From: Williamsia sp. 1138 | GTDB taxonomy: Bacteria > Actinomycetota > Actinomycetes > Mycobacteriales > Mycobacteriaceae | Length of the DNA: 49,962 nt | Direction of reading: 5' to 3' | NCBI RefSeq assembly: GCF_002095435.2 | Contig: NZ_MJEJ02000020.1 | Location: 1 to 49,962, forward strand | Shown here: positions 21,361-48,146 of the stretch, in pieces | Layout: every line of letters starts with the position of its first letter | Numbering within the stretch: position 1 is the first letter of the stretch | The notes under the pieces: model-generated | Seen by the model: only the letters and a program-made list of their open reading frames with translations | What the model was told of the DNA's origin: nothing | Database searches by the model: none | Position numbers and translations under genes: made by a program

Positions 21361-21393
21361 GTCTATACACAGTGTATAGACGAAGAGTATGGT
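21361..21393 (+). promoter_or_regulatory. Palindromic operator and promoter of the acyl-CoA dehydrogenase pair
   Basis: The operator (21361-21381) is GTCTATAC, ACAGT, GTATAGAC, extended by inner bases to a perfect palindrome around a central A. It covers the -35 (TATACA, 21364-21369). Eighteen bases later the -10 is TATGGT (21388-21393), and the ATG follows after six bases. It is the most symmetric of eight related sites and serves best as the reference for the motif. Confidence 0.75.
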
Positions 21394-21399
21394 GTGGCG

Positions 21400-22563
21400 A
21401 TGACCACCATGATCAGCTCTATCCCAGAATCTGTATATGAAGACGAGCACGAGGACTTCCGTGCCAGCTTTCGCTCGTTTCTCGAATCCCGGGTCGTCCC
21501 CGACTACCTGGAGTGGGAGAAGCAAGGCATCCTGCCCCGAACGCTGTTCGAGGAAGCCGGGTCTCACGGCTTCCTCGGTATGGAGATCGGTGAGGAGTTC
21601 GGCGGCGGAGGGGTCGAGGATTTCCGGTTCAATGCGGTGATCGCCGAAGAGATCGCTGCTACCGGAGCCGTGTCCTTCGGTATCAACCTGCACAACGACA
21701 TCTGCATCCCCTATTTCCAGAGGTACGCAAGCGACGACCAGAAGCGGCGCTGGCTGCCGGGTCTGGCCTCGGGGGAACTGATCGCCGCGATAGCGATGAC
21801 CGAGCCCGGCACCGGTTCGGACCTGGCCGGCATCGCGACGACTGCCGTTGCCGACGGTGATCACTTCGTCCTCAACGGCGCGAAGACGTTCATCTCGAAC
21901 GGCGTCAACGCCGATGTGGTGATCGTTGCCGCGCGTACGGAATCCGGCTCGCGACACGGCGGGCTGTCGCTGCTGGTGGTCGAGCGAGACACCCCCGGAT
22001 TCTCTCGCGGCCGCAATCTCGACAAGATCGGGATGCATGGTCAGGACACCGCGGAACTCTTCTTCGACAACGCCCGGGTCCCGGCGACGAATCTGCTGGG
22101 GGAGTTGGGCGGCGGTTTCAAGGCCCTGGTGTCGAATCTGGCCCAGGAGCGGTTGACGATCGCGATCGCGAGTGCGGCGTCGGCTCGACGCGCGGTAGAA
22201 CTCGCCGCGGAGTACGTTCGCGAACGCCAGGCTTTCGGGAAAGCGATCGGGTCTTTTCAGAACACCAGATTCACTCTCGCAGGGGCACTCACCGAAGTGG
22301 AGATGCTCGACACCTTTGTCCGTAGCTGCCTGCGGGCGCACGTGGCCGGTGCGCTCACCGCAGACCGCGCCGCGATGGCGAAGCTTGCAGCGACCGAGAT
22401 CCAAGGACGCGTCACCGATCAGTGTCTGCAGATGTTCGGCGGCTATGGGTTCATGACCGAGTACCCCATCGCTCGCGCCTTCGTCGACGCCCGCGTACAG
22501 CGCATCTACGGCGGAACGAGTGAGATCATGCGCGAGATCATCGGGAAGGGAATGGGCCTGTGA
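21400..22563 (+). CDS. fadE: Acyl-CoA dehydrogenase (first of a pair)
   Basis: This FAD-dependent enzyme introduces the alpha-beta double bond into an acyl-CoA. The 387 residues contain the N-terminal helical domain, the FAD/substrate segment IAMTEPGTGSDLAGI, the ERQAFGK region and the C-terminal RVQRIYGGTSEIMREI. The Glu found in medium-chain enzymes as YEGT is Gly here; instead Glu250 in NLAQERL sits where long-chain and isovaleryl-type enzymes carry their base (inference from remembered alignments). ATG 21400 is chosen because TATGGT lies six bases before it; the GTG at 21394 directly abuts that box. The next dehydrogenase overlaps by four bases. Confidence 0.92.
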   Translation: MTTMISSIPESVYEDEHEDFRASFRSFLESRVVPDYLEWEKQGILPRTLFEEAGSHGFLGMEIGEEFGGGGVEDFRFNAVIAEEIAATGAVSFGINLHNDICIPYFQRYASDDQKRRWLPGLASGELIAAIAMTEPGTGSDLAGIATTAVADGDHFVLNGAKTFISNGVNADVVIVAARTESGSRHGGLSLLVVERDTPGFSRGRNLDKIGMHGQDTAELFFDNARVPATNLLGELGGGFKALVSNLAQERLTIAIASAASARRAVELAAEYVRERQAFGKAIGSFQNTRFTLAGALTEVEMLDTFVRSCLRAHVAGALTADRAAMAKLAATEIQGRVTDQCLQMFGGYGFMTEYPIARAFVDARVQRIYGGTSEIMREIIGKGMGL

Positions 22564-23705
22564 GCTTCGATCGCACCCTCTTCGAGCCCGAACACGAAGC
22601 GTTCCGGGATTCGGTTCGAGGTTTTCTGGAAAAGGAGGCGGTGCCCCACACCGCCCGCTGGGAGGCCGAGGGGATGGTGGATCGGTCGTTCTGGAAGCTG
22701 GCGGCGACCCAGGGTCTCGTCGCCTTCAGCGCACCCGAGGCCTTGGGCGGAGCAGGGTTGCGCGACTTCAGGTTCAACGCGGTGTTGAACGAGGAAGTGG
22801 TCCGGACCGGTACCGTCGGAGATGGCTTCTCACTCACCAACGACATCGTCCTGCCCTACTTTCTCGACATCGCCGACGCCGAGCAGCAGCAGCGGTGGGT
22901 TCCGGGCATCGTGAAGGGCGACAGCGTGATCGCGATCGCCATGAGTGAACCGGGCACCGGATCCGACCTGCGGGCGATCAAGACCACCGCGCGGCGGGTG
23001 GGGGACGGTTGGCGCCTGTCGGGTTCGAAGATCTTCATCACGAGCGGGATCCAGGCAGACCTGGTCATCGTCGCAGCCCGGATCCCGGACGAGGACGGAG
23101 GTGGCTTCGGTCTGTTCGTCGTCGAAGCTGGTCAAGACGGATTCGAACGGGGCCGGAAACTGGACAAAGTAGGCCGCAAGGCCCAGGACACCGCCGAGCT
23201 GTTCTTCAACGATGTGCACGTCAGCAGCGGCAATGTTCTCGGCACGCCCGGCGAGGGACTGCATTACATGATGAAGAACCTTGCCCAGGAGCGACTGTCC
23301 ATGTCGGTGGTCGCGGTCGCCAGCGCAGAGTACGCCGTCGATCTCGCGGTCGAATACGGCAAGGAGCGAACGGCTTTCGGAAAACCGATCGGAAGCTTCC
23401 AGGCAAACAAGTTCGCACTGGCTGAGTTGTCGACCAAGGTGTCGATCGCGCGGGTCTTCGTCGACCGGTGCATCGAGGTTCACAACGCGGGTGACTTGTC
23501 GCCGGCGGACGCGGCGGGCGCGAAGTTCTGGACCACGGAGTTGGAATTCGAGGCACTCGACCGCTGCCTGCAGCTGTTCGGTGGCTACGGCTACATGGAC
23601 GAGTTCGAGGTGTCGCGGCGTTGGCGCGATGCCAGGGTGCAACGCATCTACGGCGGCACCAACGAGATCATGCGTGAGATCGTCGGACGGTCCCTCGGTC
23701 TCTGA
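22560..23705 (+). CDS. fadE: Acyl-CoA dehydrogenase (second of a pair)
   Basis: The protein has 381 residues starting at GTG 22560, overlapping the previous stop (GTGA). It shares the domain order and motifs of its neighbour: IAMSEPGTGSDLRAIK, the NLAQERLSMS site with the proposed catalytic Glu, ERTAFGKPIGSFQ and RVQRIYGGTNEIMREI. Adjacent pairs of unequal dehydrogenases often form heterotetramers in actinobacterial steroid side-chain degradation (FadE26-27 type), so this pair may act as one enzyme; that is inference. A hairpin terminator follows, shared with the convergent acyl-CoA synthetase gene. Confidence 0.92.
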   Translation: MSFDRTLFEPEHEAFRDSVRGFLEKEAVPHTARWEAEGMVDRSFWKLAATQGLVAFSAPEALGGAGLRDFRFNAVLNEEVVRTGTVGDGFSLTNDIVLPYFLDIADAEQQQRWVPGIVKGDSVIAIAMSEPGTGSDLRAIKTTARRVGDGWRLSGSKIFITSGIQADLVIVAARIPDEDGGGFGLFVVEAGQDGFERGRKLDKVGRKAQDTAELFFNDVHVSSGNVLGTPGEGLHYMMKNLAQERLSMSVVAVASAEYAVDLAVEYGKERTAFGKPIGSFQANKFALAELSTKVSIARVFVDRCIEVHNAGDLSPADAAGAKFWTTELEFEALDRCLQLFGGYGYMDEFEVSRRWRDARVQRIYGGTNEIMREIVGRSLGL

Positions 23706-23789: not shown

Positions 23790-25640
23790 TCACCTCGATG
23801 AGGATGCGTAAATGTCTTCAATGACATCCTGGTACTTGGTGCCGATGCCCCGGCGTTTGAGTTTCATCGTCGGCGTGAGCTCCTCGGAGTCGGGTAGCCA
23901 TTCCGCGTCGAGCAATCGGTAGGTTTTGATCTGCTCTACGCGGGACAGTTGTGCATTGGCCTGTGCCACAGCAGTATCGACCGCTTCTTTTACACTGGGA
24001 TCATCGACTAGTGCCGCGAGCGAGGCGTCGGGGAGACCGTGCTCGGTGGCGAAAGTGCGCGCGGAATCGGGGTCGAGAACGATCAGCGCGACGTTGTACG
24101 GTCGACCGTCGCCGATGACGCAGACCTGACCGATGAGTGGCGTGGCACTCTTGAGCTTGCTCTCGATGTTGACCGGCGACATGTTCTTGCCCGCCGCGTT
24201 GATGATCAGCTCCTTCTTCCGATCGACGATGCTGACCCAACCGTCGGGGTCGATGGTCGCGATGTCTCCGGTGTAGAGCCATCCCTCAGAATCGATGGCT
24301 TCGGCGGTTCGTTGGGGATCCTTGCGGTAGCCCCGCATCACGTGCGGTCCGCGCAGCAAGAGTTCGCCGTCCGCTGCGAGCTTGGCCTCCGTGCCTGGCT
24401 GGGCCAGACCCACTTTGCCGACTCGGATGTCGGACGGGATGTTGGTGAAGCCCAAAGCCCCGGTCTCCGACATACCGAAACCTTCTTGCAGCGGCATCCC
24501 GAGAGCAAGGAAGAACTCGTGGACGGCCGGCGCGATCGGTGCAGCGCCGGTCATGAGCAGCGAGACGCGGTCCAGGCCCAACTGAGCGCGTAGTGGTCCG
24601 AAGATCGCAGACTCAGCTCGCGTCGCGGCCACCTCCAGGTCAGCAGGGACCACCTCGCGGCGTTGTTGCAGTTGCACTCGTTCGTTCGCCGCGTCGAGCG
24701 CGCCCAGCACGCCTACTCGCTGCGCGTCGGGCATGCCGTTGAACCGTGCAAGGAGCGCCGCCCTGAGCTTTTCCCACACCCGCGGAACTCCGAGGAACCA
24801 CGACGGGCGAGCTTGTGCGACGGCACCGAACACCGAGCCGGCGTCCGCCACCGTGGTGATCGGCCACCCGGTCACGGTCGAGAGGTAGTGCGAGAACACG
24901 CGATCAGCAGCGTGCGCTGTCGGCAGGTAGGAGATCGCCGCGCCATCCTCGTCGAACGGGAACCGTTGGTTGCATGTGTGCATCACGAACATCAGGTTGG
25001 CGTGGGTCAGCTCCACCCCTTTTGGTGCGCCCGTGGTGCCCGAGGTGTAGATCAGGGTGGCCAAGTCCGATGTCCGCACCGACCGCCAGGACTGTTCGAA
25101 GTCGAAGCCGGCACTTCGGCGACCACGCACGTCGTCCAGTGTGAGGATGTTCTGCGCTGCCGCAGGAGTCGTGGTCTGCACCGGCAGCGCGTCCACTACG
25201 ACAACGGTGTCTAGGCCGGGAGTGTCGGTGCGGGAGATGACGTCGAGGAACCGGCTCTCGGCGACCAGCACCTTGTTGTCGGCGTTGTCGAACAGATAGC
25301 TGATCTGTTCGGGTGCCGACGTCAGATAGATCGAGAAGGGTGTGGCGCCCAAGTGCTGCACGGCGGTGTCCACCAGGTGGAACTCTGGGCTGTTCGACAA
25401 CATGAGGGCTACGGTGTCTCCGTGTCGGACTCCGATGTCGTACAGACCCGTGGCGATTTCTTCGACGGCGGCGGCGTACTCGGCCCAGGTCAGCGTGCGG
25501 TCGTCGCCGAACTCGATCAGGGCGATCTGATCACCACGCGCGGCGGCGGTTGCCTGGAACGCCGCGGGCAGCGTGGGTTCCCCGACCCCGGGGGCTGCGG
25601 AAGGTGATGCAGGGATGGGTGTTTCGATGGTGTCTGACAT
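23790..25640 (-). CDS. fadD: Long-chain fatty-acid--CoA ligase
   Basis: This AMP-forming ligase activates carboxylic acids to CoA thioesters. The 616 residues have the P-loop YTSGTTGAPKGVELTH, the A5-type GFGMSETGALGF, YTGDIATIDPDGWVSIVDRKKELI (A7-A8) and a C-terminal NMSPVNIESKLK. The length and the LxxAHAADR loop resemble the long-chain FadD15-like group. It follows the monooxygenase gene by 33 bases on the same strand, so it is probably expressed from the operator-controlled promoter at 27704-27734. The substrate may be the acid set free after ring or ketone oxidation, which is inference. Confidence 0.92.
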   Translation of the reverse strand: MSDTIETPIPASPSAAPGVGEPTLPAAFQATAAARGDQIALIEFGDDRTLTWAEYAAAVEEIATGLYDIGVRHGDTVALMLSNSPEFHLVDTAVQHLGATPFSIYLTSAPEQISYLFDNADNKVLVAESRFLDVISRTDTPGLDTVVVVDALPVQTTTPAAAQNILTLDDVRGRRSAGFDFEQSWRSVRTSDLATLIYTSGTTGAPKGVELTHANLMFVMHTCNQRFPFDEDGAAISYLPTAHAADRVFSHYLSTVTGWPITTVADAGSVFGAVAQARPSWFLGVPRVWEKLRAALLARFNGMPDAQRVGVLGALDAANERVQLQQRREVVPADLEVAATRAESAIFGPLRAQLGLDRVSLLMTGAAPIAPAVHEFFLALGMPLQEGFGMSETGALGFTNIPSDIRVGKVGLAQPGTEAKLAADGELLLRGPHVMRGYRKDPQRTAEAIDSEGWLYTGDIATIDPDGWVSIVDRKKELIINAAGKNMSPVNIESKLKSATPLIGQVCVIGDGRPYNVALIVLDPDSARTFATEHGLPDASLAALVDDPSVKEAVDTAVAQANAQLSRVEQIKTYRLLDAEWLPDSEELTPTMKLKRRGIGTKYQDVIEDIYASSSR

Positions 25641-25673: not shown

Positions 25674-27698
25674 TCAGATCTGGTCGGCGTGACCGGCCGG
25701 TGCGCTGGAAGTCTGCGCCACCGGGCGCCGACTGGTGAGCCGGAACTCATCGAGCCGTGGTTCGTGTACCCGCTTCCAGTAGTCGATGTACTTCCATGGA
25801 CTGTTGGTGACGATGCGTCCGCGTTTGTTCCGGTAGTAGGTGCTGGTGCCGCCGAAGTCCCAGACAGTGTGCGCAAGAGCCTTGTCCAGCTCGGAGTTGT
25901 ACTGGTCGTGGATGTCAGTGCGTACCTCGATCTCGGCCACGTCGTCGTCGATCATCGCGGCAAGCAGCGCAGATACATGTTGTACCTGCATCTCGGTGCC
26001 GGCGATCACGGTCCCGCCGTGTCCGGTGTTCGTGTTGGGACCGTACAGACAGAAGAAGTTGGGGAAGCCCGGCACCGTGATGCCCAGATAGGCCCGGCCG
26101 TCGCCCTCGCCCCACACCTCTTGAAGTGTCCTGCCTGCGCGGCCCCGGACTTCGAGTGACGCCAGGACATCGACAGCCTTGAACCCGGTTGCCAACACGA
26201 GAACATCGGCGGCGTAGTGGTTTCCGTCAGTCGTTCGCACCCCGTCGGCGGTGATCTGTTCCACTCCGTCGGTGATGAGGTCGACATTCTCACGACGCAG
26301 CGTCTTGAACCAGTCGGCGTCGATCAGCAGGCGCTTGCCGTACGGGGGATAGTCGGGGAGCGCTTTCGCCAGCAGGTCCGGCCGACCGTCGAGTTCGTGC
26401 TCGATGAAGGCGGTGAGCCCGGCGCGGAGGCGGTCGTTGGCCTTGTTCACCGCGCGACCGAGGTGCGGGTACTCGGGATCCACCTGTAGCAGTCGCCACA
26501 CCTTGTCGCCCATCCTCCAGAAGAGTGCTGCGCGGTGCCAGGCGAGGTAGTAGGGGACATGGCTGTTGAGAAAGTGGGTCGAGTCGTCGACGGCCTTGCC
26601 TTTCAACGGATGCGGCATCGACCATTGCGGTGTGCGTTGGAACACCCGGACCTCGTCGGCGATCTCGCTGACCGCGGGGACGAATTGCATGGAACTGGCA
26701 CCCGTCCCGATGACCGCGACACGTTTGCCGGTCAGGTCCAGGTTTTGATCCCACCGGGCGGTGTGCAGCGCAGGCCCCCCGAAATCCGCCAGTCCCGGAA
26801 GGTCTGGGATGCTCGGCTGATTGAGCAAACCGACCGCGCTGACCACAGCGTTGGCGGTGAGAGTCTCTTCGTTCCCCGACCCGTCGGCGGCGCGGACGGT
26901 CACGTTCCACACGAACGCGTCCTCGTCGTACGTGGCCGTACTCACCTCTGTGCCGAACCTGGTGTGTGCCAGCACGTTGTGCTTTCGGGCGAGAGCGTTC
27001 CAGTATTCGGCGAGTTCCGACTGTGGCGCAAAATGACTGGACCAGTCTGGCTTGGGGTCGAAGGACAAGGAGTACAGGTAGCTCGGCGTGTCCACGCCGC
27101 AACCGGGATAGACATTTTCGTGCCAGGTACCACCCGCTGCATCGTTCTTGTCGACGAGCAGATAGTCGATTCCGGATTGTTCGAGGCGCACGGCCATCGC
27201 CAGACCGGAGATGCCGGCTCCGATGATGATCACCCGGAACTCTGGATCCACCGGCGCGGCCGGCGCGGTGTGCCGGGCATAGATGCCCATTTCTTCTCCG
27301 AGCAGCGTTCCGTAGTCGGAGGGGATTCGATCGGAGAGCATCACCGAGAGGATGTGGGTCAGTCGTTCCGGGGTGGGTGGTGCCGCGGGGAAGTCCGTCG
27401 ACCCATCACGCCAGTCCCGCAGGATTGCGCTCGCGGCCAACCGGATCGCCCGGCCGGTCTCCTCGTCGAACCCGCCGGAATCGTTGTTGCCCAGATCTTT
27501 CGGTGCGCTGGGCAGAAAAGGCGCAGAGATCCACCGATCGTTGCCCGTGAGCAGCGCCAGTGAACCCAACAGGTAGGGAAGATTGGCGTCGCTGAGCGCG
27601 CGATCCAGGTCGACGTCGGTGAAGTCTCTGGACGGAACGAAGCTTCCGCGAGGATTGTCGCTCGGCGCAGGTTGTGCTTCAGGATGAGTCGGGGACAT
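25674..27698 (-). CDS. Baeyer-Villiger monooxygenase with N-terminal extension (HAPMO-like)
   Basis: The enzyme uses FAD, NADPH and O2 to turn ketones into esters or lactones. The 674 residues have an extension of about 150 residues, then the FAD Rossmann motif GAGISG (160-165), the family fingerprint FGGPALHTARW (306-316, matching FxGxxxHxxxW), and the NADPH motif GTGASS (331-336). The extension and length fit the 4-hydroxyacetophenone-monooxygenase type. ATG 27698 is chosen because TATGGT ends six bases upstream. fadD follows in the same transcript. With the hydrolase at 31260, the ester product could be cleaved, for example when shortening a methyl ketone; the substrate itself cannot be read. 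Confidence 0.92.
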   Translation of the reverse strand: MSPTHPEAQPAPSDNPRGSFVPSRDFTDVDLDRALSDANLPYLLGSLALLTGNDRWISAPFLPSAPKDLGNNDSGGFDEETGRAIRLAASAILRDWRDGSTDFPAAPPTPERLTHILSVMLSDRIPSDYGTLLGEEMGIYARHTAPAAPVDPEFRVIIIGAGISGLAMAVRLEQSGIDYLLVDKNDAAGGTWHENVYPGCGVDTPSYLYSLSFDPKPDWSSHFAPQSELAEYWNALARKHNVLAHTRFGTEVSTATYDEDAFVWNVTVRAADGSGNEETLTANAVVSAVGLLNQPSIPDLPGLADFGGPALHTARWDQNLDLTGKRVAVIGTGASSMQFVPAVSEIADEVRVFQRTPQWSMPHPLKGKAVDDSTHFLNSHVPYYLAWHRAALFWRMGDKVWRLLQVDPEYPHLGRAVNKANDRLRAGLTAFIEHELDGRPDLLAKALPDYPPYGKRLLIDADWFKTLRRENVDLITDGVEQITADGVRTTDGNHYAADVLVLATGFKAVDVLASLEVRGRAGRTLQEVWGEGDGRAYLGITVPGFPNFFCLYGPNTNTGHGGTVIAGTEMQVQHVSALLAAMIDDDVAEIEVRTDIHDQYNSELDKALAHTVWDFGGTSTYYRNKRGRIVTNSPWKYIDYWKRVHEPRLDEFRLTSRRPVAQTSSAPAGHADQI

Positions 27699-27703: not shown

Positions 27704-27734
27704 GACCATACAGTCTGTCCAGACGTGGCGTCAA
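27704..27734 (-). promoter_or_regulatory. Operator and promoter of the monooxygenase-fadD unit
   Basis: On the minus strand the -35 is TTGACG (27729-27734), the spacer 18 bases, the -10 TATGGT (27705-27710), and the ATG follows after six bases. The operator (27704-27724) reads GTCTGGAC, five bases, GTATGGTC. It covers the spacer and the -10 in the same register as four other sites. Confidence 0.75.
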
Positions 27735-27824: not shown

Positions 27825-28976
27825 TCACGTCTCGACGACGCCCTGGCTGACCAACTCGTCGATGTCATCGGCGTCGAAACCGGCCTCGGACAGGATGTTT
27901 CGACTATCGGCGCCCGGGGAGCGTCGCGGCGTCGGCCTGGTGGGAGGTGCGCCGTCGAATCGCGGTGCCGGTGCCGGTTGCACGACCCCCTCGACATCGA
28001 CAAAGGTGCCACGCGCGGTGTGGTGCGGATGCTCGATCGCCTCGGCCATCGTCAGAGCCGGTGCGTAGCAGGTGTTCCGCCCCTCGAACAGCGTGTCCAG
28101 CTCGCTGCGGGTGAACTGGGCGATCCGGGCTGCGACGATGGTTCGGAACTCATCCCACCGGGACTGGTCGAACTGATTGTCCCGCACGTTCTGCGGAAGT
28201 TCGAGCAGGTCGCACAGCTCATGCCAGAAGGCCGTCTCGATGGCACCGATGCTGACCCAGTGTCCGTCTTTCGTCTGATAGACGTCGTAGAAGAACGCGC
28301 CGGTGTCCAGAAGGTGGGTCCCGCGTGCCTCGGTGAAACTGCCTTCGGCACGGAGCGAGTGGAACATCGCCATCAGAGCCGAGACGCCATCGATCATTGC
28401 TGCATCGACGACACGTCCACCGCCGCCACCGCGGACCGACAACAGCCCGGCGAGCATCCCGATTCCGAGAAGCATTCCGCCCCCGCCGAAATCACCCACG
28501 AGATTGAGCGGGGGTGTCGGCGGAGCGCCCTTCCTGCCGATCGCATGCAGCGCCCCCGTGAGTGCGATGTAGTTGATGTCGTGACCTGGCATGGATGCCA
28601 TGGGGCCGTGCTGACCCCACCCGGTCATCCGCCCATAGACCAGATTCGGATTGATGGCGAGGCAGTCATCCGGACCGACACCGAGCCGCTCGGCAACCCC
28701 GGGACGGAACGTCTCGATGATGCCGTCGGATCCGGCGCACAGCCGTCGCACGATCTCGGCGCCCTGCGGTGCCTTCAGGTCCACCGCCAGATGTCGGCGG
28801 CTGCGGAACATGATGCCGTGCCCGCCGACCGCCCAGGGATTCCCTCCGGGGCGATCGACGCAGATCACCTCCGCGCCCAGATCGGCGAGGAGCATGCCCG
28901 CAAACGGTCCGGGGCCGATGCCCGCGAGTTCAACGATCCGGACGCCGGCGAGCGGAGGTGTGGGGGTGCTGGTCAA
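27825..28976 (-). CDS. mcr: Alpha-methylacyl-CoA racemase (CaiB/BaiF family III CoA-transferase fold)
   Basis: The enzyme interconverts 2R- and 2S-methylacyl-CoA so that acyl-CoA dehydrogenases can act on branched chains. The 383 residues align by eye with M. tuberculosis MCR: Arg91 (ETFRPGV), His132 (GHDINYIALTG), Asp162 (NLVGDFGGG) and Glu247 (VSIGAIETAF) stand at a constant offset of six from its H126, D156 and E241. A plain CoA-transferase would have Asp at a different place. The start is TTG 28976, whose TTGA overlaps the stop of the oxygenase gene; an ATG start further upstream would lie inside that gene. It is transcribed with that oxygenase. Confidence 0.88.
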   Translation of the reverse strand: MTSTPTPPLAGVRIVELAGIGPGPFAGMLLADLGAEVICVDRPGGNPWAVGGHGIMFRSRRHLAVDLKAPQGAEIVRRLCAGSDGIIETFRPGVAERLGVGPDDCLAINPNLVYGRMTGWGQHGPMASMPGHDINYIALTGALHAIGRKGAPPTPPLNLVGDFGGGGMLLGIGMLAGLLSVRGGGGGRVVDAAMIDGVSALMAMFHSLRAEGSFTEARGTHLLDTGAFFYDVYQTKDGHWVSIGAIETAFWHELCDLLELPQNVRDNQFDQSRWDEFRTIVAARIAQFTRSELDTLFEGRNTCYAPALTMAEAIEHPHHTARGTFVDVEGVVQPAPAPRFDGAPPTRPTPRRSPGADSRNILSEAGFDADDIDELVSQGVVET

Positions 28977-30345: not shown

Positions 30346-30391
30346 ATGGTAGACCGCGACTGAACACTATGTCTACACTCTGTGTATAGAA
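30346..30391. promoter_or_regulatory. Divergent promoters with shared operator (oxygenase/nitroreductase)
   Basis: The operator at 30371-30391 reads GTCTACAC, TCTGT, GTATAGAA and matches the reference site at 17 of 21 bases. Rightward: TGAACA (30361-30366), 18 bases, TATAGA (30385-30390), then a leader with the AAAGAAGG ribosome site before ATG 30452. Leftward: TAGACA (30370-30375 on the minus strand), 18 bases, TACCAT (30346-30351). One bound repressor would cover the rightward -10 and the leftward -35 together. Confidence 0.7.
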
Positions 30392-39794: not shown

Positions 39795-40783
39795 ATACAT
39801 CGCGCCGGGGTCTGCGGTCGATCTGGTCCAATGACGTGGTCGTCGGAGTGACGGTCGTGGCTGTCGCGGTGATCGTGCTGATCGCTTTCGGCCTGCTGTA
39901 CATGCGCCCCCCGAATCAGAAGACGATCACCTTCGAGACAACCGACGCCTCGGCCATCACAGTGGGTCAGGATGTGCGCGTAGCGGGTATCAGCATCGGC
40001 ACCGTCTCGGACATCACGATGGAACCGAACACCGTGAGGGTGTCTGCGCGAGTAGACGATACGACCTTCGTGGGGGATCAATCCCGGATCGAGGTGCGGA
40101 TGCTGACGCCGGTGGGTGGGTATGCGATCAGCCTGGTCCCGCGCGGCGCGCAGCAGAAGTCGGATGTTCTCATCCCCACCGAACGCGTCAGCGTCCCCTA
40201 CTCGATCGGTGACGTGCTGCAGAGTGCACCGACCGTGACCGAGGAGGTCGACGCACAGACCGTGCAGGCGAACCTGGACCAGGTAGCCGATGCGCTGAAC
40301 GGCAACTCAACCTCGCTGACGTCCATTGTCGACGGGCTGAACAGCATCACGGGAGTGTTCGAGCGGCAACGCGGTCAGGTCGATCAGATAGCCGCCCTCG
40401 CTCGCGAGTATCTGCACACCTTCGAAGCGAACCGCCAGTTCGTATTCGAGCTGATCACCAAGATCGACACGGTGGTGAACACCTATCTGAACAATGCCGC
40501 GGGGTTCAACTACGCGTATCTGTTGCTCGGAAATGTCCTGTCCAAATTGACGCCGTTCATGAAGTTCTTTCTTGAGAACTCCGACCTCGTCCGGACTCAT
40601 GTCGAGGGCCTGAAGTCAACGGTCGCCGACATCCAGCAGAACCTGGGACCGGCGATCGACAATCTGCAGTCGTTACGCGGACAATTGGCACAGTGGCTCG
40701 GCCCAGACGGGATGAAGCAGTTCGGTGGCGGAAACCTCTGGACATCGCAAGTGTGTGTACCGATTCCGGGGCGGGAGTGCTGA
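39779..40783 (+). CDS. mceC: Mce family protein C
   Basis: The 334 residues have an anchor (VVVGVTVVAVAVIVLIAFGLL), an MCE domain (about 50-125, ITFETTDASAITVGQDVRVAG) and a long helical tail. The Cys pair near the end (QVCVPIPGREC) repeats the pattern of the other subunits. GTG 39779 is chosen because GAGGTGG lies just upstream, giving a 16-base overlap with mceB; GTG 39791, with the usual GTGA overlap, is an alternative. It is shorter than Mce1C of M. tuberculosis (about 515 residues), lacking the Pro-rich tail. Confidence 0.88.
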   Translation: MQRQVNTSRRGLRSIWSNDVVVGVTVVAVAVIVLIAFGLLYMRPPNQKTITFETTDASAITVGQDVRVAGISIGTVSDITMEPNTVRVSARVDDTTFVGDQSRIEVRMLTPVGGYAISLVPRGAQQKSDVLIPTERVSVPYSIGDVLQSAPTVTEEVDAQTVQANLDQVADALNGNSTSLTSIVDGLNSITGVFERQRGQVDQIAALAREYLHTFEANRQFVFELITKIDTVVNTYLNNAAGFNYAYLLLGNVLSKLTPFMKFFLENSDLVRTHVEGLKSTVADIQQNLGPAIDNLQSLRGQLAQWLGPDGMKQFGGGNLWTSQVCVPIPGREC

Positions 40784-40784
40784 G

Positions 40785-41828
40785 GTGAAGAAGTCTGAAC
40801 TGACGAAACGAGTCGTCGCATTGGCCGCGGTGGTTGTGACGGTAGGTGCCGCTGTGACGACGGTGCGCTACATGAACGCTCCGCAGGCATCGGCGGCGAG
40901 CGCACGAGATGGCTCCGGATTCTGTGCCGAGATGGCCGATTCCATCGGGCTGTACGAGGGAAACCCGGTGACGCAGATGGGATATCAACTCGGTACCGTC
41001 ACTTCGATACACCCGCTCGGTGACCACGTGAAAGTAGTCTTCGAACTCGATGCGGGACGTTCATTTCCCGCCGACGTGCAGGTGGTGACCAGATCCAAGT
41101 CACTGCTCGCGGACAGAAGTCTCGAACTCGTCGGCAACTACGCCGGTGGCCCGACGCTGCGATCCGGCACCTGTGTCGAGATGGATCGAACGCACACCCC
41201 GAAGAGCATTTCTGAGATCACCGGGTCTGCGTCCGATTTCATCGAGGCACTCTCGGCCACCGACGAAGACACCGTCGAATCGGCCATCACCGGTCTGGAC
41301 AAGGCGCTCGACGGCACCGGCACCAACGCCAATTCGATGATGCGGCAGGCCGCCGCCGCGGCGCGCAACCCCGAACAGGTCACCGCAGACATCGGCTCCT
41401 CCATCATGAACATGGCGCCGCTGACCGAGGACGCGCTGGCGCACTGGGGCGAGATCACCTCCATCCTCAACCAGATGCCATCGGTTGCCAGGCTCGGAAC
41501 GACGCTGTTCGGCGATGTCGCACGCTTTGACCGAGGGGTGGGGTGGCTGGTGGCGACGATCTACGACATCCAGCGCAACTACGGCGACGATCTGTGGCCG
41601 CTGATGCAGGGAGGTGTGGCCGATGTGATCCATCTCGCCGCCACCCGGGCTCCGGATCTCCAACAGCTCTACGCCACAGTCCCTTCCATCGCGGCGGTGC
41701 TGAATCAGCAGGAGGCGTCAAGTGGTCTCTCCGTTCCTTACCAGGCGCCCACTGTGAGCGTGAAGGGAAACAACGTGCCCGCAACGAGCATTCTCGACGT
41801 GATTCTGCAGACGGCTGGGCAGCGATGA
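40785..41828 (+). CDS. mceD: Mce family protein D
   Basis: The 347 residues start at GTG 40785, one base after the mceC stop. The hydrophobic N-terminus (VVALAAVVVTVGAAVTTVRY) could be an anchor or signal. The MCE domain follows (about 45-125) with a Cys pair (GFCAEM, GTCVEMD) framing it. Helical tail and total length fit a short-type MceD. The gene overlaps mceE by four bases. Confidence 0.88.
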   Translation: MKKSELTKRVVALAAVVVTVGAAVTTVRYMNAPQASAASARDGSGFCAEMADSIGLYEGNPVTQMGYQLGTVTSIHPLGDHVKVVFELDAGRSFPADVQVVTRSKSLLADRSLELVGNYAGGPTLRSGTCVEMDRTHTPKSISEITGSASDFIEALSATDEDTVESAITGLDKALDGTGTNANSMMRQAAAAARNPEQVTADIGSSIMNMAPLTEDALAHWGEITSILNQMPSVARLGTTLFGDVARFDRGVGWLVATIYDIQRNYGDDLWPLMQGGVADVIHLAATRAPDLQQLYATVPSIAAVLNQQEASSGLSVPYQAPTVSVKGNNVPATSILDVILQTAGQR

Positions 41829-42832
41829 CCATGAACAAGATGACAAGAGCTCTGGGGCTGGCTGTCACCGCCGCTGTGGCGATCGTGACGGCAGGGTGCT
41901 CGTTCGGCCCCAATGAGTTGCCCTCGGTGCGCGCGGGAGTCAGCAGCGACTACGAAGCGACGCTCGAGTTCAGCAGCGTGCTGAATCTCCCACCGGGCGC
42001 CGATGTGGTGATGAACGGCCTGCGGGTGGGTCAGGTCCAGGATCAAGAACCCGGCGACAAGGGGATCGACGTCACGGTGGGCCTGACCGATGACATCAAG
42101 ATCCCTGCCGATGTGCGTGCCATCATCAGGCAGAACACCCTGCTGGGCGATACGTATATCGCGCTCACCCCGAATGATGAGCCTGGAGCCGGTGCCCAGT
42201 ACCTCGGCGACGGGGGAGTCGTCCCGGTAGAACGAACCACGTCGCCTCCGCAACTGGAGGACACAATCGCGGTTCTGGCGTACTTCGTCAACGGCGGCAG
42301 TATCCAGAAGGTCCAGGACACGATGGCGACCCTGAACAAGACGATGCCGCCCACGGACGACATCAGAAAGCTGGCTTCGGTGGTCTCGGTCGATCTGAAG
42401 GACCTTGCCGGCAACACCACCGAGATCGACCGGATGCTCGAGGGATTCAACGGTGTATCGCTGTCGGTGACCGACCGGAGCGACCAATTGCGAGCCGTCT
42501 TCGGCGACGAGGGAGTCTACTACTGGAAGCGGGTGGCCAAGTCTCTCGTCGGCCATATCAGTACGCTCCTGCCGTCGGTGGGCAGCATCTTCGAGGGCGG
42601 CCTCTGGCTGATACCGATGCTGAACTCGTTGGCGGACACGGCGGAAGCCGGACGGGGAACATGGGACCGTGCACCTGAGGTGACCACGCAGCTGAGCAAC
42701 TTCTTGCGGACGACGTTGTTGCCGTTCTCCGAGAACCCTTCGGTCAACATCACCTCGGTGCGTACCGACGGCGGAAAGCAGCTGATCGGCGATGCGACCA
42801 CGATCCTGCGAATGCTGGGAGCAGTGCGATGA
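41825..42832 (+). CDS. mceE: Mce family lipoprotein E
   Basis: The 335 residues begin with a lipoprotein signal (LAVTAAVAIVTAGCSFG, lipobox TAGC), the LprK/LprN-type feature that marks MceE. The MCE domain (about 40-125: YEATLEFSSVLNLPPGADVVMNGLRVGQV) is complete. The long helical tail has the LPSVGSIFEGG region. ATG 41825 overlaps the mceD stop (ATGA), and the stop overlaps mceF. Confidence 0.92.
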   Translation: MTMNKMTRALGLAVTAAVAIVTAGCSFGPNELPSVRAGVSSDYEATLEFSSVLNLPPGADVVMNGLRVGQVQDQEPGDKGIDVTVGLTDDIKIPADVRAIIRQNTLLGDTYIALTPNDEPGAGAQYLGDGGVVPVERTTSPPQLEDTIAVLAYFVNGGSIQKVQDTMATLNKTMPPTDDIRKLASVVSVDLKDLAGNTTEIDRMLEGFNGVSLSVTDRSDQLRAVFGDEGVYYWKRVAKSLVGHISTLLPSVGSIFEGGLWLIPMLNSLADTAEAGRGTWDRAPEVTTQLSNFLRTTLLPFSENPSVNITSVRTDGGKQLIGDATTILRMLGAVR

Positions 42833-43788
42833 TCACCCGAACGAAGATCTCTGTGCTGGCCATGGTTCTGCTGGCAGTGTCATCGGTGTTCTACATGACC
42901 CGCGTGGGTCTGCATGTCGATGCGCTCAGCAGCACCAGGAGTGCGTCGATGGTGGTACCCGACACCAATGGGCTGCTGGTCGGGTCGAGGGTGCTGTTGC
43001 GGGGGGTGCCCATAGGTCACGTCACCGACCTCGAACCCGCCGCCGACGGGGTCGATGTGAGGTGGAATTACAGCGACGAGCGGAAAATACCGATCAACAG
43101 CGCATTCCGCGTGGACAATCTCTCGGCCCTGGGTGAGGCCTATGTGTCCGTACTGCCGTCTTCCATCAACGGTCCGTTTCTGGGTGACGGCGATGTCATT
43201 GCCAGGGAACAAGTATCGACGCCTACAACCTTCAAGGAGTTGTCCGAGAAGCTGACCGACATCTTGGGCCAGGTCGACCCTGACCAGGTTCAGGGCATCT
43301 TCTCGACACTGGACGTCGGTCTGCCCGACGATGTGCGGGTGATCGGTGATCTCAATCGTGCCGGTACCTATCTTGCGGACGAGTTCACCCAGCAGCAGGA
43401 CAATTTGGTGACGCTGTTGGCGACGCTGCAGCCCCTGCTGATGCGATCAGGCGACATGCCGGAGAACTTCCGGGCGACGGCGCCACTGATGGCCGACTTC
43501 GGCACGGGGTTCCAGGACCTCTTGAACTCGGTGAGAGATGCAACAATTCGCGGTCCGCTGCTCGCCGGTATCCGAGACGGTGCGAGTCCGCTGTTCACCG
43601 AACTGCAGACGTTCCTTGACCTGACGGCGGCCGACCTCAACGTGATCGGGGTGAACCTGCTTCCGGCGGCGAGTGCCGGTGCAGCTTCGCTCCGCACCGT
43701 GGACATGGGTCGCATGCTCGACAAGGTCCTCGCCGCGACCTCGCCTCCGGGCGCGGTGACCATCACCATCCCCGCCGGCGCGAACTGA
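42829..43788 (+). CDS. mceF: Mce family protein F
   Basis: The 319 residues have an N-terminal anchor (ISVLAMVLLAVSSVFYM) and an MCE domain (about 35-115, with VPDTNGLLVGSRVLLRGVPIGHV), then a helical tail. It is much shorter than Mce1F of M. tuberculosis (about 515 residues). It closes the six-gene set, and a 49-base gap with a strong ribosome site leads to the Mce-associated gene. Confidence 0.9.
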   Translation: MITRTKISVLAMVLLAVSSVFYMTRVGLHVDALSSTRSASMVVPDTNGLLVGSRVLLRGVPIGHVTDLEPAADGVDVRWNYSDERKIPINSAFRVDNLSALGEAYVSVLPSSINGPFLGDGDVIAREQVSTPTTFKELSEKLTDILGQVDPDQVQGIFSTLDVGLPDDVRVIGDLNRAGTYLADEFTQQQDNLVTLLATLQPLLMRSGDMPENFRATAPLMADFGTGFQDLLNSVRDATIRGPLLAGIRDGASPLFTELQTFLDLTAADLNVIGVNLLPAASAGAASLRTVDMGRMLDKVLAATSPPGAVTITIPAGAN

Positions 43789-43837
43789 ACAAGCGGTAAC
43801 CGAAAACTGACGACAGAAGGAAAGGAAGGTGGCGATC

Positions 43838-44497
43838 ATGAGCAAGGGAACATCCGTCGCGGAGATCACCAAGGCCGACGACAATGTGGAGGACCATGAA
43901 TCCACCACGGAGACAAAGGCAGCAGAACCCGTAATCGCCAAGCAGGCGACCGCGGCGAAGTTCGCCGACCGCCCGATTAGGTTGAAGACGATCCTGTCGA
44001 TCGTGCTGGTGGCAGGTTTGGTCGGGCTGAGCGCCTTCTTTGCGTGGCAGTGGCACTCGACATCAGCGGATCTGAACAATATTGAGCAGGGTCAGTCGAA
44101 TGATGCTCGGGCAGAGCAGATTTCTCTCGATTACGCGACGGGCGCGGCCGAGATGAACTTCCAGAGCCCTGACGAGTGGCGCGGACGGCTCACGGCCGGG
44201 ACATCACCCGAGCTGTCGAACCGGCTGGAGCAGGCGGCCACGTCCATGGAGCAGTTGATCCAGCCGTTGCAGTGGACATCCACCGCGACGCCGATCGCAG
44301 CCAAGGTCGAATCCGTCACCGATGGTGTGTACCAGGTCGTGACGTTTGTCGATGTGCTGACGAAGAACACCCAGACGCCGGACGGAACGTCGTCGACCGC
44401 GACCTACAAGATGAGCATCGACAGCAAGAACGGTTGGGTCATCACCGAGATCAGCGGGATGGACCCGGCAATCGACCCGGCAGCGGCGCCCAAGTGA
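43838..44497 (+). CDS. Mce-associated membrane protein
   Basis: The 219-residue protein has a cytoplasmic Glu/Lys-rich N-terminus (about 50 residues), one membrane helix (TILSIVLVAGLVGLSAFFAW), then a SnoaL-like exported domain ending in the conserved WVITEISGMDPA region, as in Mas/OmamA proteins that stabilise Mce complexes. ATG 43838 is preferred because AGGAAAGGAAGG stands about eight bases upstream; the GTG at 43829 overlaps that site. Most mce operons have two or more such genes; only one is present here. Confidence 0.82.
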   Translation: MSKGTSVAEITKADDNVEDHESTTETKAAEPVIAKQATAAKFADRPIRLKTILSIVLVAGLVGLSAFFAWQWHSTSADLNNIEQGQSNDARAEQISLDYATGAAEMNFQSPDEWRGRLTAGTSPELSNRLEQAATSMEQLIQPLQWTSTATPIAAKVESVTDGVYQVVTFVDVLTKNTQTPDGTSSTATYKMSIDSKNGWVITEISGMDPAIDPAAAPK

Positions 44498-44536: not shown

Positions 44537-44567
44537 TTGACATCATGTTCATACGCTATGTATGGTC
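44537..44567 (+). promoter_or_regulatory. Operator and promoter of the kinase-mceG unit
   Basis: TTGACA (44537-44542), an 18-base spacer and TATGGT (44561-44566) precede ATG 44574 by seven bases. The operator (44547-44567) reads GTTCATAC, GCTAT, GTATGGTC. Inside it CATAC and GTATG form a perfect palindrome around GCTAT. The layout matches the aldehyde dehydrogenase promoter base for base in spacing. Confidence 0.72.
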
Positions 44568-44573: not shown

Positions 44574-45638
44574 ATGAGTGAACTGGTCGGCACAAGCCAA
44601 TTGCCAAGAGCGGTCGAGGATCTGACTCCCGAGTGGCTCAGTGGTGTCCTGTCCACAGGGCGCGGCAGTGTCCAGATCACATCGATGACCGTGGACAGGA
44701 TCATCTGGGGATCGGCGACCAAGGTGTTCGCAACCCTGACATTCGAAGGCGATTCGAAGGGAGTGCCAGAACGCGTCTGCATCAAGGGCGGGTTCGACGA
44801 GCGAAGCCGCGCCTTCGGACTGGGGGCGGCGTACGAGCTCGAGGGCAACTTCTACCGCGACTTGGCGGCAGGATTCGGTGCAGAGGTGCCGGAGTGCTAC
44901 TACGCAGAGGCTGAACCGGAGCAAGGCGTTGTGATCCTCGAAGACCTCACTCTGCGGGGCGCCGAGTTCGGCGACGCGACGAACCTGTGGTCGATCGATG
45001 ACGTCGCGAGTACGCTCGCCGTGCAGGCGGCATGGCATGCGCCACTGTGGGGGAGCAAGAAAGGCGATCACGCGTGGTTGCCGGTCGGATGCCAGGCTGC
45101 GCGGGAGGCCTTCACCGTGATGCTGAGTCCCGAACAATTTCATCCGCTCATCGAACGCGAGGAGATCCCCGCCCTCTCGGTCGGACTCCGCGACGATGCC
45201 CGGGTACGAGCGGGATTCCGGGCGCTCTGGGAACACGACGACAGCTCTGTCCACACCATCAACCACGGCGATGCCCACTTTGCGCAGCTCTATCGGGTGC
45301 CCGGACACGCTCCTGCGTACCTTGATTGGCAGACCGCATGTCTTGCGCCCTGGGCCCACGACGTTTCGTACTTCATGGGATCGGCCTTGAGCGTTGCGGA
45401 CCGGCGAGCGAACGAACGAGAGCTGCTGCAGCACTACGTCGAGGCGTTGCACGCCGCCGGTGGTCCGACGATCGGGCAGGACGACGCGTGGCGTGAGTAC
45501 CGGCTGCATACGCTGCACGGTTTTGCGTGGATGTGTGTTCCGACGGTGATGCAGCCGTCGGAAGTCGTGGCCGCGATGGCCACCCGATACGCCGCTGCCA
45601 TCGAAGATCACGATCCGATCGGTCTACTCCTGGGCTGA
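44574..45638 (+). CDS. Phosphotransferase, ecdysteroid-kinase-like/APH fold
   Basis: The 354 residues have the aminoglycoside-phosphotransferase fold with a catalytic loop HTINHGDAHFAQLYRV (Asp in HGD, but Gln where APH enzymes have Asn) and the metal site YLDWQTACLAPWAHDVSYFM, the pattern of ecdysteroid-kinase-like (EcKL) proteins. Substrates are hydroxylated small molecules. In mammals ACAD10/11 join a related kinase domain with an acyl-CoA dehydrogenase to remove 4-hydroxyl groups from acyl-CoA; by analogy this kinase may work with the fadE pair, which carries the same operator. ATG 44574 follows TATGGT by seven bases, giving a leaderless mRNA. MceG follows after 42 bases. Confidence 0.78.
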   Translation: MSELVGTSQLPRAVEDLTPEWLSGVLSTGRGSVQITSMTVDRIIWGSATKVFATLTFEGDSKGVPERVCIKGGFDERSRAFGLGAAYELEGNFYRDLAAGFGAEVPECYYAEAEPEQGVVILEDLTLRGAEFGDATNLWSIDDVASTLAVQAAWHAPLWGSKKGDHAWLPVGCQAAREAFTVMLSPEQFHPLIEREEIPALSVGLRDDARVRAGFRALWEHDDSSVHTINHGDAHFAQLYRVPGHAPAYLDWQTACLAPWAHDVSYFMGSALSVADRRANERELLQHYVEALHAAGGPTIGQDDAWREYRLHTLHGFAWMCVPTVMQPSEVVAAMATRYAAAIEDHDPIGLLLG

Positions 45639-45680: not shown

Positions 45681-46772
45681 GTGGGTGTTGAGGTCAGTGT
45701 TGAGGGGCTTACGAAGTCGTTCGGGTCGCAGAACATCTGGCGGGATGTCTCGCTGACTCTCCCGATGGGTGAGGTGAGTGTGCTGCTGGGCCCGTCGGGT
45801 ACGGGTAAGTCGGTGTTCCTCAAGTCGTTGATCGGTTTGCTGCACCCGGAGCAGGGTTCGGTGATCGTCGATGGCACCGACATCACGAAGTGTTCTTCGC
45901 GTGAGCTGTACGAGATCCGCAAGTTGTTCGGTGTGCTGTTCCAGGACGGTGCGTTGTTCGGGTCGATGAGCCTGTTCGACAACATCGCTTTCCCGCTTCG
46001 TGAGCACACGAAGAAGAAGGAAGACGAAATCCGTCAGATCGTGATGGACAAGATCGAGTTGGTCGGTTTGACCGGTGCGGAGAACAAGCTCCCCGGTGAG
46101 ATCTCCGGCGGTATGCGCAAGCGCGCCGGCCTGGCCCGTGCTCTGGTGCTGGACCCGCAGATCATCTTGTGCGACGAGCCGGACTCGGGTCTGGATCCGG
46201 TGCGTACGGCGTACCTGTCGCAGTTGCTGATCGACATCAACGCGCAGATCGATGCCACGATTTTGATCGTGACCCACAACATTCAGGTCGCTCGTACGGT
46301 TCCGGACAACATCGGCATGCTCTTCCGTAAGGAGCTGGTGATGTTCGGTCCGCGTGAGGTGTTGTTGACCTCGGATGAGCCGGTGGTCGAGCAGTTCCTC
46401 AACGGTCGTCGTATCGGGCCGATCGGTATGTCTGAGGAGAAGGACGACGCGCAGCAGAAGCGTGAGCAGGAGATGGTCGACGCCGGGCATTCTGACGGTG
46501 GTACCGCCGAGGATGTGCGTGGCATCGTTCCGCAGCTGCAGGCCACGCCGGGTCTGCCCGAGCGTCAGGCTGTCGCTCGTCGTCAGGCGCGTGTCCGGGA
46601 GATCCTGCACACCCTGCCCGAGCCTGCGCAGCGTGCGATCGAGGAGAGCTTCGAGGTCGAAGAGGCCGCGCAGGAGAACCAGCGCGAGGCCTACCGCAAG
46701 ACCCACCTGCGGAACGCCGGCTCAGAGGCCGAGACCGAACAGTTTCCGGCGTATCGCGCTGCCCCGGTGTGA
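45681..46772 (+). CDS. mceG: Mce transporter ATPase MceG (Mkl)
   Basis: The 363-residue ABC ATPase energises Mce lipid import. Walker A GPSGTGKS (37-44), ABC signature ISGGMRKRAGLARAL, Walker B IILCDEPDSGLDP and the switch His in IVTHNIQ are intact. The C-terminal extension of about 110 residues (helical, Arg/Glu-rich: ARVREILHTLPEPAQ) is the MceG-specific tail thought to aid stability and subunit contact. GTG 45681 has GGGAGG upstream. Codon use differs from the neighbours: Arg is mostly CGT and Gly often GGT, as in highly expressed genes. In M. tuberculosis mceG is unlinked to mce operons; here it closes the locus. Confidence 0.93.
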   Translation: MGVEVSVEGLTKSFGSQNIWRDVSLTLPMGEVSVLLGPSGTGKSVFLKSLIGLLHPEQGSVIVDGTDITKCSSRELYEIRKLFGVLFQDGALFGSMSLFDNIAFPLREHTKKKEDEIRQIVMDKIELVGLTGAENKLPGEISGGMRKRAGLARALVLDPQIILCDEPDSGLDPVRTAYLSQLLIDINAQIDATILIVTHNIQVARTVPDNIGMLFRKELVMFGPREVLLTSDEPVVEQFLNGRRIGPIGMSEEKDDAQQKREQEMVDAGHSDGGTAEDVRGIVPQLQATPGLPERQAVARRQARVREILHTLPEPAQRAIEESFEVEEAAQENQREAYRKTHLRNAGSEAETEQFPAYRAAPV

Positions 46773-46792: not shown

Positions 46793-48106
46793 TCAGCGTC
46801 CGTATATCGTTGCCACAAGAAGATTTCCGAGCATGGCGGCAACGGTGGGGGCGTCCTCCAGGTGCTTCTCCCCGGCGAGTGACCCCGCGTAGCTTCTCTC
46901 GATTGTCCAGACGAGTACTGCTGCGAGTTCGCCCGCCGGGGGGCCTTCGAGTGCGAGACCTGAGGCCCGGTCGATATCGATCGCTGATTCGAGGGCGTCG
47001 GCCATCGTTGCTATCGTGCCGAGATAGACGTCCCGCAACTCAGGTCGCCTCGGCCATTCGTGGATTGCATTGCGGACCACGGCGAGGGATCCCGGATCGA
47101 GGTCCAGCCAATTCTGCACCAGCGCACCGGCCTTCGCCGGCTTCGAACGATCCATCGCGGCAAGCGCAGAGAATCCGTCGGCAATCGACACGGCGATCTC
47201 TTGGAAGAGTGCGATGAACGCAGCCTCTTTGCTCCCGAAATAGAAGTAGAAGGTCGCCCGGGAAATGCCGGATCTCTCCAAGATCTTGGCAACGCTCAGG
47301 TCGTCGAGTGATGTCTCCGCGAGCAGGTCTTTGGTCGCCTCCAGGATCACGGATGCTGTTCCGGGGTCGCCTTCCTTCGATGGACTTTCGTATTGAGACG
47401 TGACCGACGGAACGGGGCTCTGAGAGGCCGCTTTTACTCGTTGCGCGCGGGGGCGGCGACGCAGCCGGCTCTTTGGCCGCTGGGTGCCGTAGATGGCGGC
47501 GAAGACGAGTTCGATGATGGAATCGACAGCGGATTCGGGGCCCGGGAGCCGGGGGTCCAGTCCTCTCGTTCCCACGTAGAAGGTGCGCTGGAGGGCACAC
47601 ACCAGTACGGCACCTATGGTGTCCGCGGGAAATCCCTCCGGGGCGTTGCCATTCGCGCGTTCGTAGGTGATCTGCTCGGCGATGGCCGATACGAACTTCT
47701 CCAGGGTGGAGTTCCATGCCGCGGCGAGTGCAGGCTCGCTGTGCATGTGTTCGATCGCTGCGCAGATGACGGCACCGTGCTGCGACCACATCTCGATCGT
47801 CCGACGGAGGGTCGCGTCCATCGCCCGCGCGCGCGACTTACCCAGTTCGGCCTGCCACGGCCCCTCCGAGTAGGTCTCCTCCAAGAACCGGGACAGCATG
47901 GCGATCAGCACGTCGTACTTCGAAGCGAAGTAATGGTAGAAGTTCGCGCGTGACACCCCGGCGCGGGCGATGATCTGCGCCACCGTGATGTCCTGCAGGG
48001 ATGACTCCTTGAGCAGATCTTCGGTTGCTGCGAAAACAGCAACCTCGGCCTTGGTCCGGCCATCGTGGGCACGGGGGCGACGGCGCGCCGCTGGGTTGAC
48101 ACTCAC
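46793..48106 (-). CDS. Tandem-TetR transcriptional regulator (Mce3R-like)
   Basis: The 437 residues have two TetR units: helix-turn-helix 1 about 40-65 (ITVAQIIARAGVSRANFYHY) and 2 about 270-295 (LSVAKILERSGISRATFYFY), joined by a basic linker (KSRLRRRPRAQRVKAA). Both units end in a V/A-xIYG motif, so the protein arose by duplication or fusion of a whole TetR. It is clearly paralogous to the regulator at 32118 (for instance NAIHEWPRRPEL against NAVHEWPRRPEL). GTG 48106 is chosen for its GGAGG ribosome site and for TATCCT seven bases upstream; a frame extending to 48181 would run through its own operator. It is convergent with mceG, 20 bases apart. Confidence 0.9.
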   Translation of the reverse strand: MSVNPAARRRPRAHDGRTKAEVAVFAATEDLLKESSLQDITVAQIIARAGVSRANFYHYFASKYDVLIAMLSRFLEETYSEGPWQAELGKSRARAMDATLRRTIEMWSQHGAVICAAIEHMHSEPALAAAWNSTLEKFVSAIAEQITYERANGNAPEGFPADTIGAVLVCALQRTFYVGTRGLDPRLPGPESAVDSIIELVFAAIYGTQRPKSRLRRRPRAQRVKAASQSPVPSVTSQYESPSKEGDPGTASVILEATKDLLAETSLDDLSVAKILERSGISRATFYFYFGSKEAAFIALFQEIAVSIADGFSALAAMDRSKPAKAGALVQNWLDLDPGSLAVVRNAIHEWPRRPELRDVYLGTIATMADALESAIDIDRASGLALEGPPAGELAAVLVWTIERSYAGSLAGEKHLEDAPTVAAMLGNLLVATIYGR

Positions 48107-48113
48107 GCCTCCG

Positions 48114-48146
48114 AGGATAGCGAATGTCTGAACACAATGACTGGAC
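48114..48146 (-). promoter_or_regulatory. Operator and -10 of the second tandem-TetR gene
   Basis: TATCCT (48114-48119 on the minus strand) is seven bases before GTG 48106. The operator (48126-48146), read on the plus strand, is GTCTGAAC, ACAAT, GACTGGAC. It shares 16 of 21 bases with the aldehyde dehydrogenase site and stands upstream of the -10. No good -35 is seen. Autoregulation is likely. Confidence 0.6.

Follow-up and report, generated by a model that had tools for sequence, protein, structure and literature searches.

Contig C6 of the Williamsia sp. 1138 genome raises the question of whether a single regulatory circuit governs a long run of predicted lipid-import and lipid-breakdown genes. 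The window analysed here is this one whole contig, 49,962 bases of a 6.08-Mb genome. The region from 21.4 to 48.1 kb holds 23 protein genes, including an Mce-type importer operon and the genes for dTetR1 and dTetR2, two proteins with two TetR units per chain. An earlier note had proposed that eight matching 21-bp sites bring this region under common control. On the evidence presented below, we are highly confident that the eight sites are operators of the cluster's two double-TetR proteins and that they define a conserved, autoregulated double-TetR regulon. All eight sites of the earlier note were present. They are given here as predicted operators, together with their extensions; the products of the named genes are listed further below.

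21361..21381, unstranded: operator before fadE_a-fadE_b, a palindrome perfect save for its centre base
27704..27724, minus strand: operator in the bvmo-fadD promoter, covering its spacer and -10-like box; TTGACG precedes the site, TATGGT lies within it and the ATG is at 27698
30358..30391, unstranded: operator with three half-sites (30358 + 30371, 8-bp overlap) between the divergent mpaB and nitroreductase genes
32079..32112, plus strand: operator with three half-sites, the weakest, before dTetR1 (autoregulation predicted)
34241..34261, unstranded: operator between ech (minus) and aldh (plus), 12 bp before ech, with TTGACA on its plus side
34310..34330, plus strand: operator in the aldh-mce operon promoter, with GTGATTGACATCAC upstream
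44547..44567, plus strand: operator in the kin-mceG promoter
48126..48146, minus strand: operator about 20 bp before dTetR2 (autoregulation predicted)

The 21-bp consensus is GTCTGnACA-nnn-TGTATGGwC and variants of it. The earlier note's perfect palindrome is the site at 21361, with the centre base excepted, and its spacer of five holds when the site is read as 8+5+8, although A predominates at the ninth base of each half. Scanning in both orientations with a matrix from the eight sites revealed two overlapping sites that had been overlooked: 30358, with 18.5 bits, and 32079, with 12.0 bits, both at a distance of 13 bp from a listed site. The claim that every transcription unit is covered stands provided that aldh-mce-unk forms a single operon and kin-mceG another, as suggested by gaps of at most 42 bp, and that 34241 serves ech; this last site, however, also flanks the TTGACA that faces aldh. 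Outside 21.3-48.2 kb, the best window position scored 8.5 bits, so that at this level the earlier note's failure to see any site in the housekeeping part is borne out.

The sites are specific relative to a sampled genomic background. This background comprised 20 other stretches of the genome (399,600 positions), and each site was scored with a leave-one-out matrix made from the other seven. Six sites outranked all background positions. With the full matrix, eight window positions reached at least 15 bits, compared with one in the entire background. Within the window, with the other listed sites set aside, five sites ranked first, 30371 and 34241 ranked second and 32092 ranked fifth. A whole-genome search with the pattern GTCTRWACANNNTGTATGGWC, allowing up to three mismatches, returned seven rows that correspond to six of the eight sites (21361 was counted on both strands; 30371 and 32092 were missed) and four rows elsewhere, while a reversed control returned six rows. 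A covariance model, R1, retrieved only 21361 and 27704 from the whole genome at E values up to 10 and three of the eight sites from the window alone; it was too insensitive as a genome scanner, and the matrix on sampled stretches was used instead. The earlier note had named an equal number of equal-scoring sites in random coding DNA as grounds for abandoning its proposal. The proposal stood up to this check within the reach of the whole-genome pattern and model searches and of the matrix scan of the 400-kb sample.

The motif is conserved alongside the regulator. Relatives of the regulators were identified at 25 named loci in Williamsia, Gordonia, Nocardia (including Nocardia farcinica), Mycolicibacterium, Tsukamurella, Pseudonocardia and Nocardioides, the nearest named relative of the genome being Williamsia soli (dTetR1 89% identical). 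An independent test was performed on 23 loci totalling 462,355 bases, from which two W. soli loci and loci shorter than 10 kb were left out. There, the window-only matrix gave 90 matches of at least 15 bits, whereas 100 column-permuted matrices gave a mean of 1.36 and a maximum of 14. Seventy-four of the 90 preceded a regulon gene (-40 to 250 bases), one was within a gene and 15 were elsewhere. The matches precede the same genes, in a different order, in Gordonia, Nocardia, Mycolicibacterium and Pseudonocardia, and the operator stays with its gene despite the change in gene order between genera. The kin operator lies about 57 kb from the regulator gene in one Gordonia genome (G304) and about 37 kb from it in another (G141), and in genome G265 (genus g23) operators are likewise found before the same genes. 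The regulator gene is preceded by a site in most relatives, as are both regulator genes in the window, and overlapping sites at the mpaB/nitroreductase position were also detected in some Gordonia and Nocardia. The weak site at 32092 is backed by the Gordonia loci, since seven of nine have a site of at least 15 bits located 5-7 nt before the dTetR1 start. In W. soli (L025, 2682-5055; L015), an additional mpaB relative is accompanied by a third double-TetR gene, with a 22-bit candidate operator between the two, about 0.9 kb before the regulator match.

The motif also co-occurs with the double-TetR protein across the family. Four regulator candidates were scored per genome in 401 genomes, and a full-length double-TetR protein was found in 23 of them at E <1e-100; 30 genomes passed E 1e-22, the other seven having partial or single-unit proteins. 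Two or more motif matches (up to two mismatches, a palindromic site being able to count on both strands) were present in 22 of the 23 genomes with the protein compared to 16 of the 378 others (Fisher p ~5e-25, uncorrected for kinship). At least one match was present in 22 of 23 and 50 of 378, respectively. Among the matches listed, the zero-mismatch copies were all in genomes with the protein, and seven Williamsia genomes without it had 0 or 1 match each. A single full-length copy was present in 13 of 15 Gordonia genomes and in the three Nocardia. This distribution is difficult to reconcile with the sites being operators of another regulator, such as a single EthR-like TetR protein encoded elsewhere, with the double-TetR genes as mere targets. 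The genome does encode further EthR_C proteins, on contigs C54 and C35, and the regulator genes bear operators like any other member of the set. However, no site of at least 12 bits was found in the first 12 kb of C54, home of one EthR_C gene (the C35 neighbourhood was outside the matrix scan), and we consider such a regulator very unlikely. Together, the specificity of the sites, the way the operators follow their genes through rearrangement and their co-occurrence with the double-TetR protein support the single control circuit that the earlier note had envisaged.

A second palindrome, GTCGATAC-nnnnn-GTATCGAC, of equal 8+5+8 spacing was found among the matches listed, once each in G028, G069, G085, G087, G100, G123, G154 and G244. 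These eight genomes belong to genera g21 and g23 and are without a full-length double-TetR protein. The palindrome could serve as the operator for a regulator related to the present ones.

Half-sites recur at a fixed phase. Of 164 flanks, 21 had a further half-site in the same orientation at exactly 13 bp. Every other same-orientation spacing occurred 0-2 times (spacings 14 to 49, 36 in all, gave 15 together), and the opposite orientation gave 0-3 half-sites at any spacing. Sites combining two half types, as an asymmetric operator read by two unlike HTH units might show, made up 37 of the 90 against 25.2 expected (p 0.0002). When each genus and promoter was represented by a single site, they were 11 of 30 against 8.1 (p 0.095), so the excess was confined to the unthinned set.

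The sites also overlap promoter-like hexamers at bvmo, kin and most aldh genes. In the window, the operators of bvmo and kin cover the spacer and the -10-like box, with the start codon within 12 nt. In the relatives, all 11 bvmo and all three kin sites have TTGAC just upstream, end in a TAnnn[TC] box and are followed by a start codon no more than 12 nt further on. The relatives' aldh sites showed TTGAC and the terminal box in eight of ten cases and a near start codon in one of ten. Merging sites up to 25 bp apart gave 82 clusters, of which 68 preceded a regulon gene. Among these 68, TTGAC was just upstream in 22, and a start codon followed the site in 37, compared to 46 of 272 shifted control windows. 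Because start codons lie so close behind the sites, leaderless transcription is likely for some units. The TTGAC and the box ending the site at the relatives' bvmo, kin and eight of ten aldh genes would also suit a common promoter element recognised by a single sigma factor, with -35 and -10 boxes at a conserved spacing, and no operator. This we regard as highly improbable, since the dyad symmetry takes in the outer GTC and GAC bases, all 44 other clusters lack a TTGAC immediately upstream, we know of no promoter role for a third half-site at 13 bp, and the motif follows one regulator family.

The two regulators are 51% identical to each other, and the two units of one chain, M1 and M2, share 29-30% identity. 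The M1 recognition helix, SRANFYHYF, was found in 25 of 25 aligned rows, and that of M2 is mostly SRA[S/T]FYFYF. The like recognition helices of both halves fit a palindromic site. An AlphaFold2 model of dTetR1 (25 sequences) had a mean pLDDT of 85.9 and a pTM of 0.84. In a Foldseek search, EthR structures matched along the length of one unit with 23-27% identity. Among the best 50 matches listed, one alone spanned the whole chain: Mce3R bound to DNA (9b7y_A, rank 23), a weak to moderate fold match over 427 columns (TM 0.54 by query and 0.58 by target, 15% identity, rmsd 10.1). The whole-chain fold match to Mce3R and the sequence match to EthR suggest an architecture of the Mce3R kind combined with an EthR-like sequence.

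The presence of two regulators raises the possibility that they divide the sites, with dTetR1 acting on the left units and dTetR2 on the right ones (kin-mceG and itself). Each regulator is indeed close to its own part of the window. The proteins were compared in an alignment, A2, of 23 of the 25 named loci (L031 and L038 were left out); the tree rows L048 and L054, which had wrong reading frames and a branch length of 10, were disregarded. The Gordonia and Tsukamurella proteins grouped with dTetR1 (support 93/92) and the Nocardia proteins fell outside that group, three of them being 59-60% identical to dTetR2 and 49-50% to dTetR1. This difference in kinship would suit a division of labour, but a single motif serves the one-protein loci of Gordonia and Nocardia alike and the M1 recognition helices of dTetR1 and dTetR2 are identical. 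We therefore think a split rather unlikely, though less so than the other alternatives. Since the motif is carried both by Gordonia loci with only a dTetR1-type protein and by Nocardia loci with only a protein closer to dTetR2, it appears to serve both protein types, consistent with the sites being operators of both.

Several observations weigh against reading the sites as double-TetR operators. In the leave-one-out test, 34241 was outscored by three background positions and 32092 by 17, so neither is exceptional alone. The Nocardioides locus (L039) had zero sites, and the Tsukamurella locus (L027) had just two, of 11.6 bits each; the same Tsukamurella genome (G177) is the sole miss among the 23 genomes with the protein. 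Conversely, 16 of the 378 genomes without the full-length protein still have at least two matches, eight of them through another palindrome counted on both strands, and one of the two matches in G309 is on another contig, outside the locus. TTGAC was found just upstream at 0 of 44 of the relatives' fadE_a, ech, mpaB, nitroreductase, dTetR1 and dTetR2 sites. Finally, the counts and p-values are not independent, because related species repeat the same promoters.

The genes of the locus, with their predicted products, are as follows.

21394..23705, plus strand: fadE_a and fadE_b, paired acyl-CoA dehydrogenases
23790..25640, minus strand: fadD, FadD11-like acyl-CoA ligase (score under the NCBIfam cut-off)
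25674..27698, minus strand: bvmo, Baeyer-Villiger-type monooxygenase
27825..28979, minus strand: CoA-transferase family III protein (the earlier note's "racemase")
28973..30292, minus strand: mpaB, MpaB/Lcp-domain oxygenase
30452..31183, plus strand: nitroreductase-family protein
31047..32078, plus strand: alpha/beta hydrolase (longest open frame)
32118..33404, plus strand: dTetR1, double TetR protein of 428 aa with two TetR_N and two EthR_C stretches
33413..34228, minus strand: ech, enoyl-CoA hydratase/isomerase
34337..34420, plus strand: leader open reading frame (ORF) of 27 codons, overlapping the aldh start
34417..35805, plus strand: aldh, aldehyde dehydrogenase
35806..43788, plus strand: yrbEA, yrbEB and mceA-F, lipid importer with two YrbE permeases and six Mce proteins (yrbEA start 35806 or 35824)
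43829..44497, plus strand: unk, unknown-family gene 3' of mceF, with relatives in the equivalent position in other genera
44574..45638, plus strand: kin, EcKL-type kinase
45681..46772, plus strand: mceG, MlaF/MceG-type ATPase
46793..48106, minus strand: dTetR2, double TetR protein of 437 aa, 51% identical to dTetR1

The 23 protein genes replace the 22 of the earlier count. The longest frame of the hydrolase overlaps the end of the nitroreductase gene, so its true start is probably further in. The leader ORF had been counted into the shared control; its ATG lies 6 nt past the aldh site in two of 11 loci, both Williamsia. As it is absent from the nine Gordonia loci, we rejected it as a conserved control element.

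In the mechanism that we propose by analogy with the TetR family, each regulator, a single chain with two TetR units, is expected to be a built-in dimer. Without a lipid-derived ligand, the double-TetR protein would occupy the 21-bp palindrome, exclude polymerase and block transcription, at several promoters by covering the spacer and the -10-like box. Where a third half-site follows 13 bp on, another molecule would sit beside the first, and such operators hint that two or more molecules bind cooperatively. Autoregulation of the circuit is expected, since operators precede the genes of both regulators. Once bound, the ligand would free every unit at once: the Mce importer with its own ATPase, the acyl-CoA ligase, the paired acyl-CoA dehydrogenases, the hydratase, the oxygenases and the aldehyde dehydrogenase. 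Judged by predicted functions, this set would suit the import and oxidation of a hydrophobic lipid, and the shared sites probably let a two-in-one repressor switch the whole import and breakdown cluster jointly. A rubber or terpene degradation pathway, prompted by the MpaB/Lcp domain, was set aside, as nothing beyond domain names backs it.

TetR-type one-component repressors have a palindromic operator at their target promoters, including their own, as is predicted here. KstR and KstR2 are single-unit TetR proteins whose operator sequences are unlike those of the present sites. They nevertheless resemble the system described here: they too are TetR repressors acting on lipid catabolism genes, and palindromic operators are reported for their lipid and sterol regulons (PMC4482099). 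The halves of the dTetR proteins match EthR of Mycobacterium tuberculosis, and its ligand domain, EthR_C, is present. EthR, however, has one unit per chain (216-256 aa), in contrast to the two fused units here (428 and 437 aa), and for the double-TetR proteins a large lipid regulon is at stake. EthA is a Baeyer-Villiger-type monooxygenase, and a monooxygenase of this type lies within the regulon here.

The closest parallel is Mce3R, which likewise has two TetR units per chain. Its regulon includes fadE17/18, echA13 and Rv1936-41, and the enzyme genes of the present regulon differ. Mce3R (Rv1963c of Mycobacterium tuberculosis; PDB 9b7y) is the first with a solved structure of 204 double-TetR proteins predicted in Actinomycetes (PMC11667970). 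It is reported to be autoregulated and to control an mce operon and lipid genes (PMC11667970, PMC2277422), and here operators precede both regulator genes and the mce operon, from which similar regulation is predicted. Its operator is described as asymmetric and non-palindromic, with two 25-bp sites and earlier footprints of ~33 and ~32 bp (PMC11667970); compared by description, the 21-bp palindromic core and 13-bp phasing of the present sites differ from this. Its orthologues are stated in the same report to be exclusive to a subset of pathogenic mycobacteria (PMC11667970). Mce3R was absent from two full sequence-match lists and from the best 60 matches of two others, its presence in the searched set being unconfirmed. 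We found no description of the present regulon in the literature searched, a search outside which most subscription journals lay. What is new here is the third half-site at 13 bp, the overlap of operator and promoter at bvmo and kin, and the combination of an apparently Mce3R-like chain with EthR-like sequence and a palindromic site. The genera that carry the group are mostly environmental. These proteins would constitute a second, sequence-distinct double-TetR group beside Mce3R, one whose operator, promoter layout and gene set are defined. In harmless laboratory organisms, the group would make it possible to test how fused TetR proteins recognise DNA and which substrate an uncharacterised Mce importer takes up.

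A bolder reading, which we offer tentatively and hold to be possible rather than probable, is that EthR-type single-chain repressors, forming a family of their own, read an extendable array of pseudo-palindromic octamers at an exact 13-bp spacing, on which two-headed molecules stack, over a reshuffled Mce lipid-import and oxidation regulon in several Mycobacteriales genera and Pseudonocardia. The asymmetric Mce3R operator might then be a decayed array, since its reported 33- and 32-bp footprints are near the 34 bp of three half-sites.

A second copy of mceG is located at C17:217016-218056, next to another yrbE-mce operon, with 97% protein identity over residues 1-347 and 94.9% DNA identity over 1039 bp. 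The pair is the product of a recent duplication or gene conversion of the Mce ATPase, judging from these identities. No matrix site of at least 12 bits was found in the 14.4 kb of its neighbourhood. At the right-hand border of the locus (48234-49961), a DUF222 gene reaches the contig end, and W. soli (L025) also has DUF222 relatives beside dTetR2. At the left-hand border (19749-21225), the locus adjoins ychF together with a DUF1801 gene; ychF is also the neighbour of the operator-bearing kin in Gordonia liuliyuniae (G181).

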